This document shows positions 28,464-34,599 of a DNA stretch of 34,599 bases, in pieces. The stretch covers positions 1 to 34,599 of the forward strand of contig JAWXBP010000488.1 in assembly GCA_034440135.1 (NCBI GenBank). Reading direction: 5' to 3'. The translations under genes and the position numbers were made by a program. How positions within the stretch are numbered: the stretch's first letter is position 1; every line of letters starts with the position of its first letter. Origin of the DNA: Planctomycetia bacterium. Its GTDB lineage: Bacteria > Planctomycetota > Planctomycetia > Pirellulales > JALHLM01. Below the pieces are notes generated by a model. The model was given only the letters and a program-made list of their open reading frames with translations, was not told the DNA's origin and made no database searches.

Positions 28464-31400
28464 ATGCTGTCCTGTCCACTCTGTTCCTCGACGCTAAGCG
28501 AAACGGTCTTTAACACCGGCATCTGTCCGGTGTGCGGCGGCGCTTTGCACCTGGATGATCAGCAGCGCGCCGCCGCGGCGGATCAATGGGAAAACCGTCC
28601 GGTCAAGCTGGAGTACGTCGAAGACGCGTCGATCACCGATTCCGTGGCGCTGGTGCGCGCCACATTGTCCGCAATTGTCCGCCAGTCGCAGAAGTCGCCG
28701 GTGAGCGAACGGTCCGCGCCCCAAGTGGACTTTTCCGCGCATGTGATGGGCGGTGATCCGTCACTCGCGCGGACTTCGAACTTCGGCCTGCCTCCTGGCG
28801 AGGGCGAAGACGACGTCCGCGACACGCTGCGCACCGGACTCTTCGAGGAGCCGTACGACCAATCGAAGGACGCTTCGCGCATCACTTCCATTGGGCAGAC
28901 GATCGACGTCCGCAATCTTTCGCCAGAAGAGAAGGCCCGCGTCACGGCGATGTGGAAGGGGATGGCCACGCCGCCAGCGGTGACGCCGCGGATGACCGTG
29001 CGGACCGGCGACGCGGCGGCGAAGGATTTACGCCGCACCACGCTGGTCGTGAAACCGCGCGACGTCCGCAAGTCGGAAGAGCCGGATAGCATCTCGGCCG
29101 ACTACGAGCTGTTGAACCTGATCGGCGAAGGCGGGATGGGCGTGGTCTATGCGGCCCGCCAGGCGTCCATCGATCGCGTCGTCGCGGTCAAGATGCTCAA
29201 CGCCGAGATCGCCGGCGACGCGGAACAGCGCCATAAGTTCCTTTCCGAGGCGGTCGTCACGGGCGAGTTGGACCACCCTAACATCGTCCCGATTTACGAT
29301 CTTGGCTCGAACGAATCGGGCGCGCTGTTCTACTCGATGAAGCGCGTGGTCGGCACGCCTTGGCTGGAAGTGCTGACGACATATGCGCTGCCGCAGAATC
29401 TGGAAGTGCTGATGAAGGTGGCCGACGCGGTCGCCTTCGCGCATTCCCGCGGCGTGATTCACCGCGACTTGAAGCCCGAGAACGTGATGCTCGGCGGCTT
29501 CGGCGAAGTGCTGGTGATGGACTGGGGCCTGGCGCTCTCGACCGGCACGTTCCGGAAGTCGGGCAGTATCACGCAATCGAGCAGCATGGGAGGCACGCCG
29601 GCCTACATGGCGCCGGAAATGGCCACCGGCCCGGTCGATCGCGTCACCACGGCGAGTGATATCTATTTGCTCGGCGGCATGCTGTACGAGGTCATCACCG
29701 GGCAGCCGCCGCACACCGGCAAGAACATCATGAACTGCCTGTACGCGGCGGCGCGGAATGAAATCCAGCCGACCAAACACAGCGGCGAATTGGTGGATAT
29801 CGCTAAGCGCGCTATGTCGACCGACCAGTCGCGCCGCTACGGGTCGGTCCAAGAATTTCAGGCCGCGGTCCGCGCGTATCAATCGCATTCGGAGAGCATC
29901 GTCCTCTCGACGCGGGCGGAAGACGACCTGACCGAGGCGCAGCGCACTAACAATTACCAAACGTACGCCCGCGCGCTATTCGGCTTTCAAGAGGCGGTCG
30001 CGCTGTGGAGCGGCAACGTCAAGGCTTCGCAGCGACTGATCGAAGCCAAACTCGCTTACGCCAAGGCCGCGACGGCGAAAGAAGATTACGACCTGGCGGC
30101 CTCGCTGTTGGACGCGCAGGAACCTCGCCATGCGGATCTGCGGAAGAAAATCATCGCGGCGCAAAAGGAACGCCAGGCCCGCCAGAATCGATTGCGCATG
30201 CTGCGCAATGTCGCCGCGGCGCTCATCTTCACGGTACTGACCGTCGTGAGCGTGGCGTTTGTCGTCGTTTATCGTTACTGGAACGAGGCCAACGTCGCGC
30301 GCAACAAGGCCCTCGACGCTCAAGCAAGCCTGGTCAACGCGAATAAGGACCTGGACCTAAAGCGGGCGGAAGCGGAGACGAATGCGCGGATTGCGAGCGA
30401 CAATGAGAAAATTGCCAACACCAACAGACTCGCGGCCGAGACCAACTTCGAAAAGGCTCAGCTAGCCACCGCGGCCGAAGCCAAGCAGCGTTCGCAGCGG
30501 GAATACGAGGCGTACGTCGCCCAAATCGGTTTAGCTTCGGCCAAGATCGAGGAAAACGCCGCCGGTCAGGCGCTCGAGCTATTGCAACTCTGCATTCCGC
30601 AGCGCGCGGAGAGCCAGGATTACCGCAATTGGGAATGGCGGCGACTGCTGCATTTGACCAGCCAACCTCATTTGAGCGTGCCCGTCGGTGATCGCGTGAA
30701 ATCGATCGCCGTGGCGCCCAACGGCGAAGAAATTCTCGTCGGCGCTACTTCTGGCAGCGTTCGGCGGATCACCGCGACGGGCGAATCGCTCCAAGCGTTC
30801 GAGCACGGCGGTCCGTTGAACGTCGTATTGTTTGTCGGCGCAGAGCGCGCCCTCACGGCGGGCGGCGCCGCGAAACAAGGCGTCGTTAAGCTGTGGGACT
30901 TGTCCGCCGAAGCGCCGCGCGAAATGCTCAAGTTCACGGCGCACGAAACACCGGTGCTCGCGGCCGCGATCTCGAACGACGGTTCGCGGCTGGTTACGGC
31001 CGGCGCGGATGGCGCCGTGCAACTGTGGAGCCTCGCGCTCGATTCCGCGCAACCGACCGCCGAACCTCTGCGTCGCCCCATGATCGGGCATTCCGGCGCG
31101 GTGTGGGATATCGATTTCTCGCCGGATCAAACGCACATCGTCACCGCGGGGCAAGATCGCACGGCGATCATCTGGTCGCTCGACGAAACCAAGAACGATT
31201 GGCCCTTGCCGGCGTTTCGCGGGCATACCGGCGCGGTGTACGCCTGCGCCTTCTCGCCCGACGGCCGCCGCGTGGTTTCCGCAGGCGCTGATCGCCGCGT
31301 GCTGATCTGGGACATCGATCAGATCGAATCGATCGACCTCGATCAACTGGCGCGCGAACAAGCGCCGGCTGCCGCGCCGCGTTACTTGGAACTTCGCGGC

Positions 31401-33596
31401 CACACGGCGGAAGTACGCTCCGTCGATTTCGCCCCCGACGGCAACCAGGTGCTGAGCGCCAGCAACGATCACACGGTCAAGGTCTGGGATGCGGCGAAGG
31501 GCACGCTCGTGAAAACGCTTCGCGGCCACGACGGCTGGGTCCGCAGTTGCCGCTTCGCCGACAACGGGCGGCAGGCCGTGACAGGCAGCTTCGATAACAC
31601 GGTCGCCGTCTGGCCCGTGGCCGAATACCGTGAACAGATTGTGTACTCCGAGGATAGCGCCGCCGCGGTCCTCTCCAGCGCCGCATCGCCGCACGGCAAG
31701 TGGATCGCCACCGCGCATCAAGACGGCGCGGTACGTCTCTGGGACCGCGCGACCGGCAAGCTGGAAGCCACGCTGGAGGAAGGTCACGATTTCCTTGGCG
31801 AAACGGCCGCGTACTTCCCGGATCGTCAACGCATTCTGACCGGCGCGCGCGACAGCACCGTGCGGATCTGGAACATTGCCAGCGGCGCGGAACAATCGCG
31901 ACTCACTGGCACGGGCAGCGCCGCACAAGATGTCGTCACCGCGCTCGCGCCGAGCGGGCAATGGCTCTGCACCGGCGTCTCGCCCGCCGCTGAGAAGGGC
32001 AATCAGCAGCAAGCCGCGCGTCCTTTCGCGCAATTGTGGAAGCTTAGCGAAACCACGCCGGCCGCGCAGGTGCTGTCGCTCGAGGCCCGCGCCGATGTCT
32101 CGTTGTCGGCGGCCGCATTTGCGCCGCAAGGGGCGCTGCTCTTCACCGGCCGTGACGACGGACCAGGGCAACTATGGGACTTAGATCAAAACCAACCTTT
32201 GCACGAATTGCATGGACACGTGCGACGGATCAACGCCGCGCATTTCACCTCCGATGGCGCGAGTCTGATCACGGCCAGCGACGATCACACCGTGCTGGAA
32301 TGGGATCCTGTCACCGGCGAAAAGCGCTCCGGCCGCGAGCTCTTCCACCCGCGCCCCGTCCGGGCAATGACGATCACTCCGAATGATCGGTTAGCGATCA
32401 CCGCTTGCGCCGACAACAAGGTCCGCGTTTGGGACCGAGCAACTTCCCAGGTGGTGGCCGAATTGCCGCATGGCGCGCAATCGGTTTCCAGCGTCGCGAT
32501 CTCGCCCGATGGCGCTCGTGCCGCGACAGTCAGCCACCGCGAAGTATCCGGATTGGAAGCGGAGTATCAGATTCACCTGTGGGATCTGCATACGTTCGAG
32601 GAACTCGGCAAGTCCGATGCGGCGCATGGCTGGCTCGATCACGCGCCGCGGCGCAGTTCGGTCTGGCAGGCCAATTTCTCGCCAGATGGAGATAGCTTGC
32701 TGGCCGTCGGCGGACGCCATGCGCGGTTGTTCAATCTGGCCACGCGCCAACAGGAGCGGAGCTTTGGCCCACAGGGCGCGATTACACATCTCGCCTTTGC
32801 TCATGATTCGGACGACCGCCTCGTCACGGCCGGCGCCGATGGCACGGCCAAAATCTGGAGCGTGAGCGAGCAGCGCGTGGTCGCCAAGCTCGAAGGAGTT
32901 CACACCGGCAGACTCGCGTCGGCGGCCTTCGCGCCGAACGATTCACAGATTCTCACCGCGGGCGAAGATGGCAAATTGGTGCTGTGGGACATCGCCACCG
33001 CGCAGCCGAGCACGCGGATTGACGCGCGGAGACGTGTGCGGTCGGCGGAAATGTCCGCGGATGGCGCGCGGATCATCACGGCGTCGAACGACGGCGCGGC
33101 GACGATCTGGAACGCTTCTACGGGCGCGGCGGAACGTGAATTCCGCGATGGCAACGCGCCGCTCAACACGGCGTCGCTCTCGCCGGACGGGGCGCTGCTG
33201 ATTGCCGGCGACGCCAACAATATCGCGCACGTCTGGAATGCCCAAACCGGCGAGCTATTGCAGGCGCTCTCCGGCCACACGGCGGAAATCACCGTCGTCG
33301 GCTTTTCGCCGGACAGCTCCCGCATTCTCACTGCCGCCAGTGACAACCTGGTGAAGATCTGGGACTTGACCGGCAAGGAACTGCTGACGCTCCGCGGCCA
33401 CGCCATGGAGGTCACGAGCGCCGCCTTCACCGCCGAAGGCGATCGCCTCGACGTATTGACCGCCAGCCGCGACGGCACCGCGATCCTCTGGCCCGCCGCG
33501 GATGCGGAGACCGCGACCGGGACGACGGGCGCCGGAAGCGTCGGCATCCGGAACGAATTGGCCGCGACGCCGTCCGCGGATCACGCTGAGCGCTAA
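28464..33596 (+). CDS. membrane Ser/Thr protein kinase with zinc ribbon and about 20 WD40 repeats
   Basis: The 1,710-residue protein begins with a zinc ribbon (C4, C7, C21, C24). An unstructured region to about 210 follows, then a Hanks-type kinase domain (about 214-470): Gly loop GEGGMGVVYA (221-230), AVK with K243, HRDLKPEN (D335), DWG in place of DFG (353-355) and APE (383-385). All key catalytic residues are present, so it should be active. A transmembrane helix at about 583-603 is followed by an Asn/Ala/Glu-rich coiled coil (about 605-690). A WD40 region fills the remainder, about 730-1,690, with roughly 20 blade ends such as VKLWDLS, VKVWDAA and VRIWNIA. The kinase is predicted to be cytoplasmic and the propellers to lie across the membrane, where they may sense a ligand or scaffold partners. 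It is co-transcribed with the PKD protein. GAGG at 28456-28459 precedes the ATG. Confidence 0.9.
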   Translation: MLSCPLCSSTLSETVFNTGICPVCGGALHLDDQQRAAAADQWENRPVKLEYVEDASITDSVALVRATLSAIVRQSQKSPVSERSAPQVDFSAHVMGGDPSLARTSNFGLPPGEGEDDVRDTLRTGLFEEPYDQSKDASRITSIGQTIDVRNLSPEEKARVTAMWKGMATPPAVTPRMTVRTGDAAAKDLRRTTLVVKPRDVRKSEEPDSISADYELLNLIGEGGMGVVYAARQASIDRVVAVKMLNAEIAGDAEQRHKFLSEAVVTGELDHPNIVPIYDLGSNESGALFYSMKRVVGTPWLEVLTTYALPQNLEVLMKVADAVAFAHSRGVIHRDLKPENVMLGGFGEVLVMDWGLALSTGTFRKSGSITQSSSMGGTPAYMAPEMATGPVDRVTTASDIYLLGGMLYEVITGQPPHTGKNIMNCLYAAARNEIQPTKHSGELVDIAKRAMSTDQSRRYGSVQEFQAAVRAYQSHSESIVLSTRAEDDLTEAQRTNNYQTYARALFGFQEAVALWSGNVKASQRLIEAKLAYAKAATAKEDYDLAASLLDAQEPRHADLRKKIIAAQKERQARQNRLRMLRNVAAALIFTVLTVVSVAFVVVYRYWNEANVARNKALDAQASLVNANKDLDLKRAEAETNARIASDNEKIANTNRLAAETNFEKAQLATAAEAKQRSQREYEAYVAQIGLASAKIEENAAGQALELLQLCIPQRAESQDYRNWEWRRLLHLTSQPHLSVPVGDRVKSIAVAPNGEEILVGATSGSVRRITATGESLQAFEHGGPLNVVLFVGAERALTAGGAAKQGVVKLWDLSAEAPREMLKFTAHETPVLAAAISNDGSRLVTAGADGAVQLWSLALDSAQPTAEPLRRPMIGHSGAVWDIDFSPDQTHIVTAGQDRTAIIWSLDETKNDWPLPAFRGHTGAVYACAFSPDGRRVVSAGADRRVLIWDIDQIESIDLDQLAREQAPAAAPRYLELRGHTAEVRSVDFAPDGNQVLSASNDHTVKVWDAAKGTLVKTLRGHDGWVRSCRFADNGRQAVTGSFDNTVAVWPVAEYREQIVYSEDSAAAVLSSAASPHGKWIATAHQDGAVRLWDRATGKLEATLEEGHDFLGETAAYFPDRQRILTGARDSTVRIWNIASGAEQSRLTGTGSAAQDVVTALAPSGQWLCTGVSPAAEKGNQQQAARPFAQLWKLSETTPAAQVLSLEARADVSLSAAAFAPQGALLFTGRDDGPGQLWDLDQNQPLHELHGHVRRINAAHFTSDGASLITASDDHTVLEWDPVTGEKRSGRELFHPRPVRAMTITPNDRLAITACADNKVRVWDRATSQVVAELPHGAQSVSSVAISPDGARAATVSHREVSGLEAEYQIHLWDLHTFEELGKSDAAHGWLDHAPRRSSVWQANFSPDGDSLLAVGGRHARLFNLATRQQERSFGPQGAITHLAFAHDSDDRLVTAGADGTAKIWSVSEQRVVAKLEGVHTGRLASAAFAPNDSQILTAGEDGKLVLWDIATAQPSTRIDARRRVRSAEMSADGARIITASNDGAATIWNASTGAAEREFRDGNAPLNTASLSPDGALLIAGDANNIAHVWNAQTGELLQALSGHTAEITVVGFSPDSSRILTAASDNLVKIWDLTGKELLTLRGHAMEVTSAAFTAEGDRLDVLTASRDGTAILWPAADAETATGTTGAGSVGIRNELAATPSADHAER

Positions 33597-33617: not shown

Positions 33618-33649
33618 GCAATTCGCCGGTTTTCGAGGATGCGAATTGC
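33618..33649 (+). terminator. weak candidate terminator after the kinase gene
   Basis: GCAATTCG (33618-33625) and CGAATTGC (33642-33649) form an 8-bp stem with a 16-nt loop that includes GGTTTTCG. It sits just after the kinase stop and before the next promoter, as expected for a terminator, but the loop is long and there is no clear U-tract. Confidence 0.3.
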
Positions 33650-33651
33650 TC

Positions 33652-33680
33652 TTGCACCGTTTGCTGCGCTTTACTATAAG
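33652..33680 (+). promoter_or_regulatory. sigma70-type promoter placed for leaderless transcription
   Basis: TTGCAC (33652-33657), a 17-nt spacer, then TATAAG (33675-33680). Initiation about 7 nt after the -10 box would be at the A of the ATG at 33687, giving an mRNA with no 5' leader. Consistent with this, no Shine-Dalgarno precedes that ATG. Confidence 0.5.
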
Positions 33681-33686
33681 CCGCGC

Positions 33687-34025
33687 ATGAACACTCGCAT
33701 CTTTACGCGCCGGCAGTTTGTGCGCTTTCTCGGATTGACCGGCATGATGTCTGTCGCCGGTCGGCTGTTCGCGCAAGGGAGCAAGCCGCTGTCCCCGGGG
33801 CGCACGATTACGCTACGCGACATGCTCACTACCGGACTCAAGTGCCGGCGGCCCGAGGAGTTTGCGTATATCGACGGCATCGTCGCGCTGGTCGACGCTG
33901 GCGTGCTATCGGAAAGCCTGGTGCGTTCCACGTTCGCCTACGCCCGCAAGCGGCGGCCGTATCCGCTGGTCTATTTCCAGCAGGCGCTCCGCCGTCGCGC
34001 GAAAAAGCTGGGCGTCGCCGTTTAG
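33687..34025 (+). CDS. small secreted protein with Tat-like signal, function unknown
   Basis: The 112-residue product starts MNTRIFTRRQFVRFLG. The twin-Arg followed by Q-F and a hydrophobic stretch (GLTGMMSVAGRLFA) looks like a Tat signal peptide, with cleavage near the FAQG segment. The mature part of about 80 residues is basic, with 'TLRDMLTTGLKCRRPEEFAYIDGIVALVDAGVLSESLVRSTFAYARKRR', seen here only in outline (residues about 37-86). I do not recognise a functional family, though small proteins of this type occur in planctomycetes. An in-frame ATG at 33639 would add 16 residues but overlaps the promoter and destroys the signal-peptide position. The gene is convergent with the dockerin tail. 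Confidence 0.65.
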   Translation: MNTRIFTRRQFVRFLGLTGMMSVAGRLFAQGSKPLSPGRTITLRDMLTTGLKCRRPEEFAYIDGIVALVDAGVLSESLVRSTFAYARKRRPYPLVYFQQALRRRAKKLGVAV

Positions 34026-34101: not shown

Positions 34102-34599
34102 TCAGCGTTCGATAACAGCGAGGGCAGCATTTCCGTTCCATGCGCCAATTCTATGCGGCCTCGCGCATAGGCGGCGGAACAGTACAAGCCCAATCGCCGC
34201 AGGGGCCAGTAGCGCCAGTGATGGCGGCCTCGGGACCGCAGTCGCGCCGACAGCGCCGAAATTGTTGCGCACCGCGTTCAAGCCGCGGAAATCGATATCG
34301 TTATCGCCCCCGGTATCACCGAGACCGTCCCCGCCGAAATTATTGCGGACGTTATTGAGGTCCTCGATGTCGACTTGGTCGTCGGCGTTCGTGTCGCCCA
34401 AGTGTCCCAAGACCGGAGAGAACTTCATCACTAACCCGTTTGCCCACCAAGTGTCGGTGCGAACAAGGAGCCGTAGTGACCAGCCACGAATTCCTGTACC
34501 CAACCGTTTCCTTCATAACGGGTGGTACAGGAATTCGTGGCTGGTCAGCAGCTTGACTGTCGGCGCTTCGAGTGTGGCGATGACGTCCGACAACTTCGA
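34102..34599 (-). pseudogene. interrupted gene end: dockerin-like repeats and PEP-CTERM-like tail behind an in-frame TGA
   Basis: The minus frame entering at 34599 is open for 28 codons with good coding bias, ends at TGA (34513-34515), and the same frame then stays open to TGA at 34102-34104. The downstream part has two dockerin type I-like EF-hand repeats (DTNADDQVDIEDLNNVRNNFG and DTGGDNDIDFRGLNAVRNNFG, each about 21 residues, shown only as their cores GDTNADDQVDIEDLNN and DTGGDNDIDFRGLN), then a PEP-CTERM-like signal: VPRPP, a hydrophobic helix, FRR. VPRPP departs from the usual VPEP and about 20 extra residues follow the Arg cluster, both signs of decay. The TGA lies in the loop of an inverted repeat. 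Either a palindromic element broke a single PEP-CTERM gene, or a separate gene ends there and the tail is a remnant. The catalytic part of the gene lies outside the window. Confidence 0.6.
34477..34547. repeat. perfect 24-bp inverted repeat with 23-nt loop
   Basis: The arms 34477-34500 and 34524-34547 are exact reverse complements and contain an EcoRI-type GAATTC core. The 71-bp palindrome sits inside an otherwise open minus-strand frame, and its loop contains the in-frame TGA. It could be an inserted palindromic element or a strong terminator hairpin. Confidence 0.85.

Follow-up and report, generated by a model that had tools for sequence, protein, structure and literature searches.

A 71-bp palindrome with an in-frame TGA near a planctomycete contig end is very probably IS3-family right-end sequence

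MITEs are recognised by their occurrence in multiple copies and by their target duplications. Palindromic elements of the Rickettsia type (RPEs) form families of about 150 bp with many insertions in unrelated genes, where they encode an in-frame conserved peptide (PMC10969869, citing Ogata et al. 2000). Insertion sequences (IS) of the IS407 group are about 1.2 kb long and mostly produce 4-bp duplications, and one insertion of this group was described with a deletion at the 3′ end and without a duplication (PMC3281130).

Here we analysed a stretch of 34,599 nucleotides from a Planctomycetia bacterium (the window), which is the entire contig G000:C488 of a 7.29-Mb assembly in 534 contigs. A 71-bp palindrome with a TGA codon in its loop is located near the end of the window. 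Based on the comparison of sequences, we suggest that the palindrome is very probably IS3-family right-end sequence, placed between fragments of unrelated genes. The features of the region are as follows.

34102-34476, minus strand: C-terminal tail, in decay, of a protein of the dockerin-repeat/PEP-CTERM type (GDTNADDQVDIEDLNNVRNNFG ... VPRPPSLALLAPAAIGLVLFRRL), identified by comparison with paralogues.
34473-34476, plus strand: left flank GTAG, a possible eroded 4-bp target duplication.
34477-34547, no strand: the 71-bp palindrome, two putative IS3-family right tips facing outward, with perfect 24-bp arms and a 23-nt loop.
34477-34500, minus strand: second, inverted occurrence of the right end (its outer 24 bp), with its outer end at 34477, identical to the first tip at 24 of 24 positions.
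34497-34500, no strand: GGTA (as read on the minus strand), the point at which the inverted tip takes over from the IS sequence; common to both tips and a candidate deletion microhomology.
34497-34547, plus strand: 51-bp IS right end (IRR with inner hairpin), with its outer end at 34547, 92% identical to the IS on contig C331.
34513-34515, minus strand: the in-frame TGA, inside the loop and belonging to TTATGAAGG, a conserved terminal sequence of the IS.
34548-34551, plus strand: right flank GCAG.
34549-34599, minus strand: first codons (SKLSDVIATLEAPTVKL) of a gene resembling tyrosine recombinases, truncated by the palindrome as well as by the contig end.

The arms found by the repeat search, 34477-34500 and 34524-34547, are identical over 24 of 24 bp and are separated by 23 nt. 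The RNA of the minus strand at 34470-34555 folds with -57.6 kcal/mol (z = -11.2), and none of 200 shuffles was equally stable. The TGA, located at 34515-34513 of the minus strand, shares the frame in which the stretch from 34599 is read, and one frame runs on either side of it. Upstream of the palindrome the codon score in this frame is 0.60 bits per codon versus -0.89 and -0.28 in the remaining frames, and the stretch is thus coding-like. The palindrome itself is not coding-like, the codon use of the segment 34476-34402 is poor (-0.27), and the dockerin part is moderately coding-like (0.29). Hence, the repeat search and the frame and codon analysis bear out three claims of the original prediction, namely the 24-bp palindrome with the TGA in its loop, the same frame before and after the TGA, and codon use that is good before the palindrome and poor just after it.

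The source of the palindrome is found in the same genome. Contig C331 holds a complete 1314-bp IS with orfA and orfB, with the left end (IRL) TGGCCTGCTAC... and the right end (IRR) TGACCAGCCAC.... The orfA product contains the HTH_Tnp_1 domain and the orfB product the rve integrase core together with HTH_21; orfB also matches the IS3-family transposase model NF033516 at 1.9e-74, far above the cut-off. In further genomes of the order, complete relatives define the ends as IRL TGGCCTGCTA... and IRR ...GCTGGTCA, and IRL differs from IRR. Exact 4-bp target duplications, counted from the flanking bases, are present in 8 of the 11 complete IS copies. The element resembles the IS407 group in its HTH_Tnp_1 orfA, its rve/HTH_21 orfB, its TG...CA ends and the 4-bp duplications of its relatives. 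We therefore suggest that it belongs to this group, an assignment drawn from the duplication length and from our reading of orfA. The 4-bp duplication characteristic of the group is seen at complete copies, and the window scar itself shows 3 of 4 bases; unlike IS407-group elements, the window keeps merely 51 + 20 bp from two right ends.

Window positions 34497-34547 align with positions 1305-1355 of the C331 IS query at 92% identity and reach the exact IS terminus. These 51 bp, the exact terminus and the IS3-family transposase of the complete element together identify the sequence as an IS3-family end remnant. The second arm corresponds to the outer 20-24 bp of the right end. It is IRR rather than IRL, for the complete IS has TGGCCTGCTACTGAATTCCTGGTCC at its left, and an IRL origin was rejected on comparison of the complete copies. 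Both arms end exactly at the IS terminus (TGA...TCA). The GGTA overlap of the two tips was read from direct comparison of the window with IS right ends, and it may have served as the site of a deletion. The sequence TTATGAAGG, which includes the in-frame TGA, occurs in both right ends and left ends of the IS copies; thus the TGA is IS sequence and not a decoding signal.

The 51 bp that close the palindrome were found, whole or in part, in the own genome on contigs C228, C20, C153, C231, C331 and C339. On the first five of these the tip TGACCAGCCACGAATTCCTGTACCACCCGTTATGAAGG, which differs at 0-2 of its first 24 bases, runs on into IS sequence near AACGGTGGGGTAAGACYGCTGTGCTGCTGG, and there is no inverted copy of the tip behind it, unlike in the window; on C339 the match is limited to about 37 bp of the tip. 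Matches to the tip, mostly to the 51 bp, are present in 20 of the 396 genomes of the order. A scan of genome contigs with a degenerate pattern of the tip gave four matches, all in unrelated bacteria; none of them extends into an IS end, and we therefore take them as chance.

Exact right ends of 50 to 260 bp without the remaining IS are located on C228, C20, C153, C231 and C339 (L009-L012, L015) and on C9 of the same-genus genome G001 (L065). Truncated right ends are thus common in the own genome, which indicates that IS bodies are often lost. No left ends of such remnants occurred in the stretches fetched, and the surplus of right over left ends may in part be due to how the searches were done. 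One right-end remnant (L010 1472-1558) contains the perfect palindrome GGGATGGGCCTCGGCGACGGC-GCA-GCCGTCGCCGAGGCCCATCCC at the place where the complete C331 IS has an imperfect one, possibly as a result of quasi-palindrome correction.

The two flanks of the palindrome come from different genes. The upstream 51 bp, 34549-34599, are 90% identical in DNA to C89:200-250 (E = 7.6e-13), where they open a long ORF of 590 aa from the first TTG, or of 561 aa from the MSKLSDV... start at base 197, that carries the PF00589 phage-integrase domain. The reading frame is identical in both copies, with SKLSDVIATLEAPTVKL in the window and MSKLSDVIAALEAQALKL on C89. Position 34599 is the contig end, so the upstream gene cannot be read any further. 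On C89 (L014 8-1882) the tyrosine-recombinase ORF, which has a long N-terminal extension, directly follows a tRNA-Val gene, and the arrangement resembles the border of an integrated element.

Downstream of the palindrome, the tail is of a type that matches 127 places in the own genome. It is degenerate with respect to its paralogues: VPEP is changed to VPRP, acidic residues have been lost from the second calcium loop and, unlike in the paralogues, no stop follows the basic cluster. NCBIfam PEP-CTERM models match it weakly, all below the cut-off, and no paper on planctomycete PEP-CTERM dockerin proteins was found in the collection of papers searched. The dockerin and PEP-CTERM motifs predicted after the TGA are thus present as a dockerin-type tail, with the PEP motif itself degenerate.

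With a recombinase start upstream and a dockerin tail downstream, it is implausible from the sequence that one gene should code for a tyrosine recombinase at its start and for a PEP-CTERM protein at its end. The original prediction had placed the palindrome inside one PEP-CTERM gene and had proposed to see what the upstream part encodes; the recombinase N-terminus in the upstream 51 bp speaks against one gene. We suggest that the ORF apparently crossing the TGA is a chance fusion, the same frame being expected one time in three. The caveat that decay or chance agreement of the frame could be involved therefore holds, the flanks being unrelated and the tail degenerate. It had also been claimed that an inserted palindrome brings the stop. 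Foreign, transposon-derived DNA with a TGA is indeed present, and the part of the claim that falls is its insertion into one gene. Recoding or readthrough of the TGA is without support, the two sides being different genes, and was rejected. The recombinase start and the PEP-CTERM tail could have been joined already before any insertion.

We suggest that the 71-bp scar was, on balance, probably left by a deletion between two IS copies. These copies would formerly have stood with their right ends facing outward, one of them in or next to the tyrosine-recombinase gene and the other in a PEP-CTERM-type gene. A deletion at the 4-bp GGTA microhomology would then have removed all that lay between them, leaving 51 bp of one right end and 20 bp of the other. 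The identity of the arms, the IS termini and the identity of the flanks are established directly, and from them we infer the precursor and the deletion. We prefer this deletion since it explains the exact termini on both sides, the right-end origin of both arms, the unrelated flanks, the switch at GGTA and the lack of an exact duplication. At G015:C2:250606-255210 a complete and a truncated IS copy have their right ends facing outward at a distance of 4.6 kb. We considered this pair as a picture of the precursor; it is a possible one, without the exact duplication pattern that would prove its origin, and was set aside.

Insertion of the palindrome as a unit, a 71-bp miniature IRR/IRR element moved by an IS3-family transposase with one base of its duplication changed since (CTGC/CTAC), is the alternative that we take most seriously, though we regard it as unlikely. 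Both ends of the palindrome coincide exactly with IS termini, and the flanks, CTGC and CTAC on the minus strand, match at three of four bases over the duplication length of the IS itself, which is expected in about 5% of cases by chance and falls short of an exact target duplication such as 8 of the 11 complete copies have. In addition, 71 + 4 = 75 bp, or 25 codons, so that insertion of the unit would keep an existing frame. However, no further full-length copy was found in the own genome or across 396 genomes of the order, the internal deletion of a single IS would yield IRL...IRR instead, and the flanks are unrelated, so that the unit would have had to enter a relic that was fused beforehand. 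The more general notion of a minimal 71-bp IRR/IRR unit, mobilisable by IS3-family transposase and giving 75-bp frame-preserving insertions with a stop, seems to us highly improbable. If true, such a mobile unit would relax the rule of one left plus one right end in IS3-family transposition; nothing here requires mobility. Quite unlikely, too, is a template switch, in which a single right end folded back at GGTA and copied its own tip. The right end is a quasi-palindrome (TACCACCCGTTA ... TAACGGTGGGGTA), this inner quasi-palindrome is seen in IS right ends, and the C20 remnant has a perfect palindrome with 21-bp arms versus the imperfect one of the C331 IS. There is nevertheless no reason for such copying to halt exactly at the IS terminus, as is observed here, and it leaves unexplained the loss of the IS body and the different adjoining gene.

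The contig stops 52 bp past the palindrome, and the junction is thus without independent support. In an assembly of 534 contigs, repeated IS tips near a contig end might have made the assembler join unrelated sequences, and a palindrome that looks like k-mer joining occurs in another genome. At G346:C2:811232-811484 (L119 1495-1747) two IS right ends form a perfect 253-bp palindrome. Since 253 = 2 x 127 - 1, and since contigs C12 and C19 of G346 begin with the same 127 bp, we consider that it probably arose during assembly at k = 127 and do not use it as a precedent. The window palindrome does not carry this signature, being 71 bp long with an imperfect centre; moreover, its 51-bp tip has private base differences absent from the remaining copies of the genome, and the final 51 bp of the contig are not copied from another contig end. 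We thus hold an assembly artefact to be very unlikely in the window. Least probable of all, to the point of being nearly negligible, is a Rickettsia-type palindromic element that entered one PEP-CTERM gene without breaking its frame. The two sides do share a frame and a PEP-CTERM-like tail lies downstream, but upstream lies the beginning of a recombinase gene, and the unit is an IS end that belongs to no multi-copy family and carries a stop.

The full-length 71-bp unit has a single match in the own genome, the one in the window, and none in the 395 other genomes of the order. The scan of the 396 genomes scored the best 2 candidates per genome, and when all candidates were scored in the 20 genomes having the tip there was still no second full-length copy. 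The search for other copies inside genes, proposed with the original prediction, thus gave none in the own genome or in the 396 genomes. The likeness to RPEs consists in a palindrome within an apparent open reading frame. It fails on size, copy number and open frame: RPEs, as characterised in PMC10969869, are about 150 bp long, dispersed, and extend the host protein by an in-frame ORF, whereas the window unit is 71 bp long, present once, derived from IS ends and puts a TGA in the frame of its flanks. Like MITEs, it is short and non-coding, and its terminal inverted repeats can be traced to the ends of an autonomous IS. Unlike MITEs, it is found in a single copy, combines two right ends where MITEs have one end of each kind, and has flanks that agree at three of four bases (CTGC/CTAC), with no exact target duplication.

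We conclude that the feature in the window is IS debris of an ordinary sort, in which the frame agrees by chance; it represents no new kind of element, and the finding is largely ordinary. The case illustrates how the scar of an IS next to a contig end may look like a palindrome that was inserted in frame into a gene and brought a stop codon, and it cautions against taking such a scar for recoding or for an RPE-like element.

The neighbourhood of the scar differs from that in the same genus. In G001 the orthologue of the gene at 33639-34025 is 91% identical, and ORFs interpreted by us as plsC and cmk follow it within a few bases. The plsC gene of the own genome is located on the separate contig C317 with other ORFs after it, so that synteny is broken there (also L055, L077). 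The PEP-CTERM tail is absent from G001, where synteny ends before the tail. An empty site is thus not displayed, and G001 was set aside as an orthologue without the palindrome. Since G001 lacks the tail and has plsC as the direct neighbour, the region has been rearranged, which is in line with an IS scar. Further along the window, positions 28464-33596 hold an ORF of 1710 aa, which, as we read it, is apparently a protein kinase joined to many WD40-type repeats.
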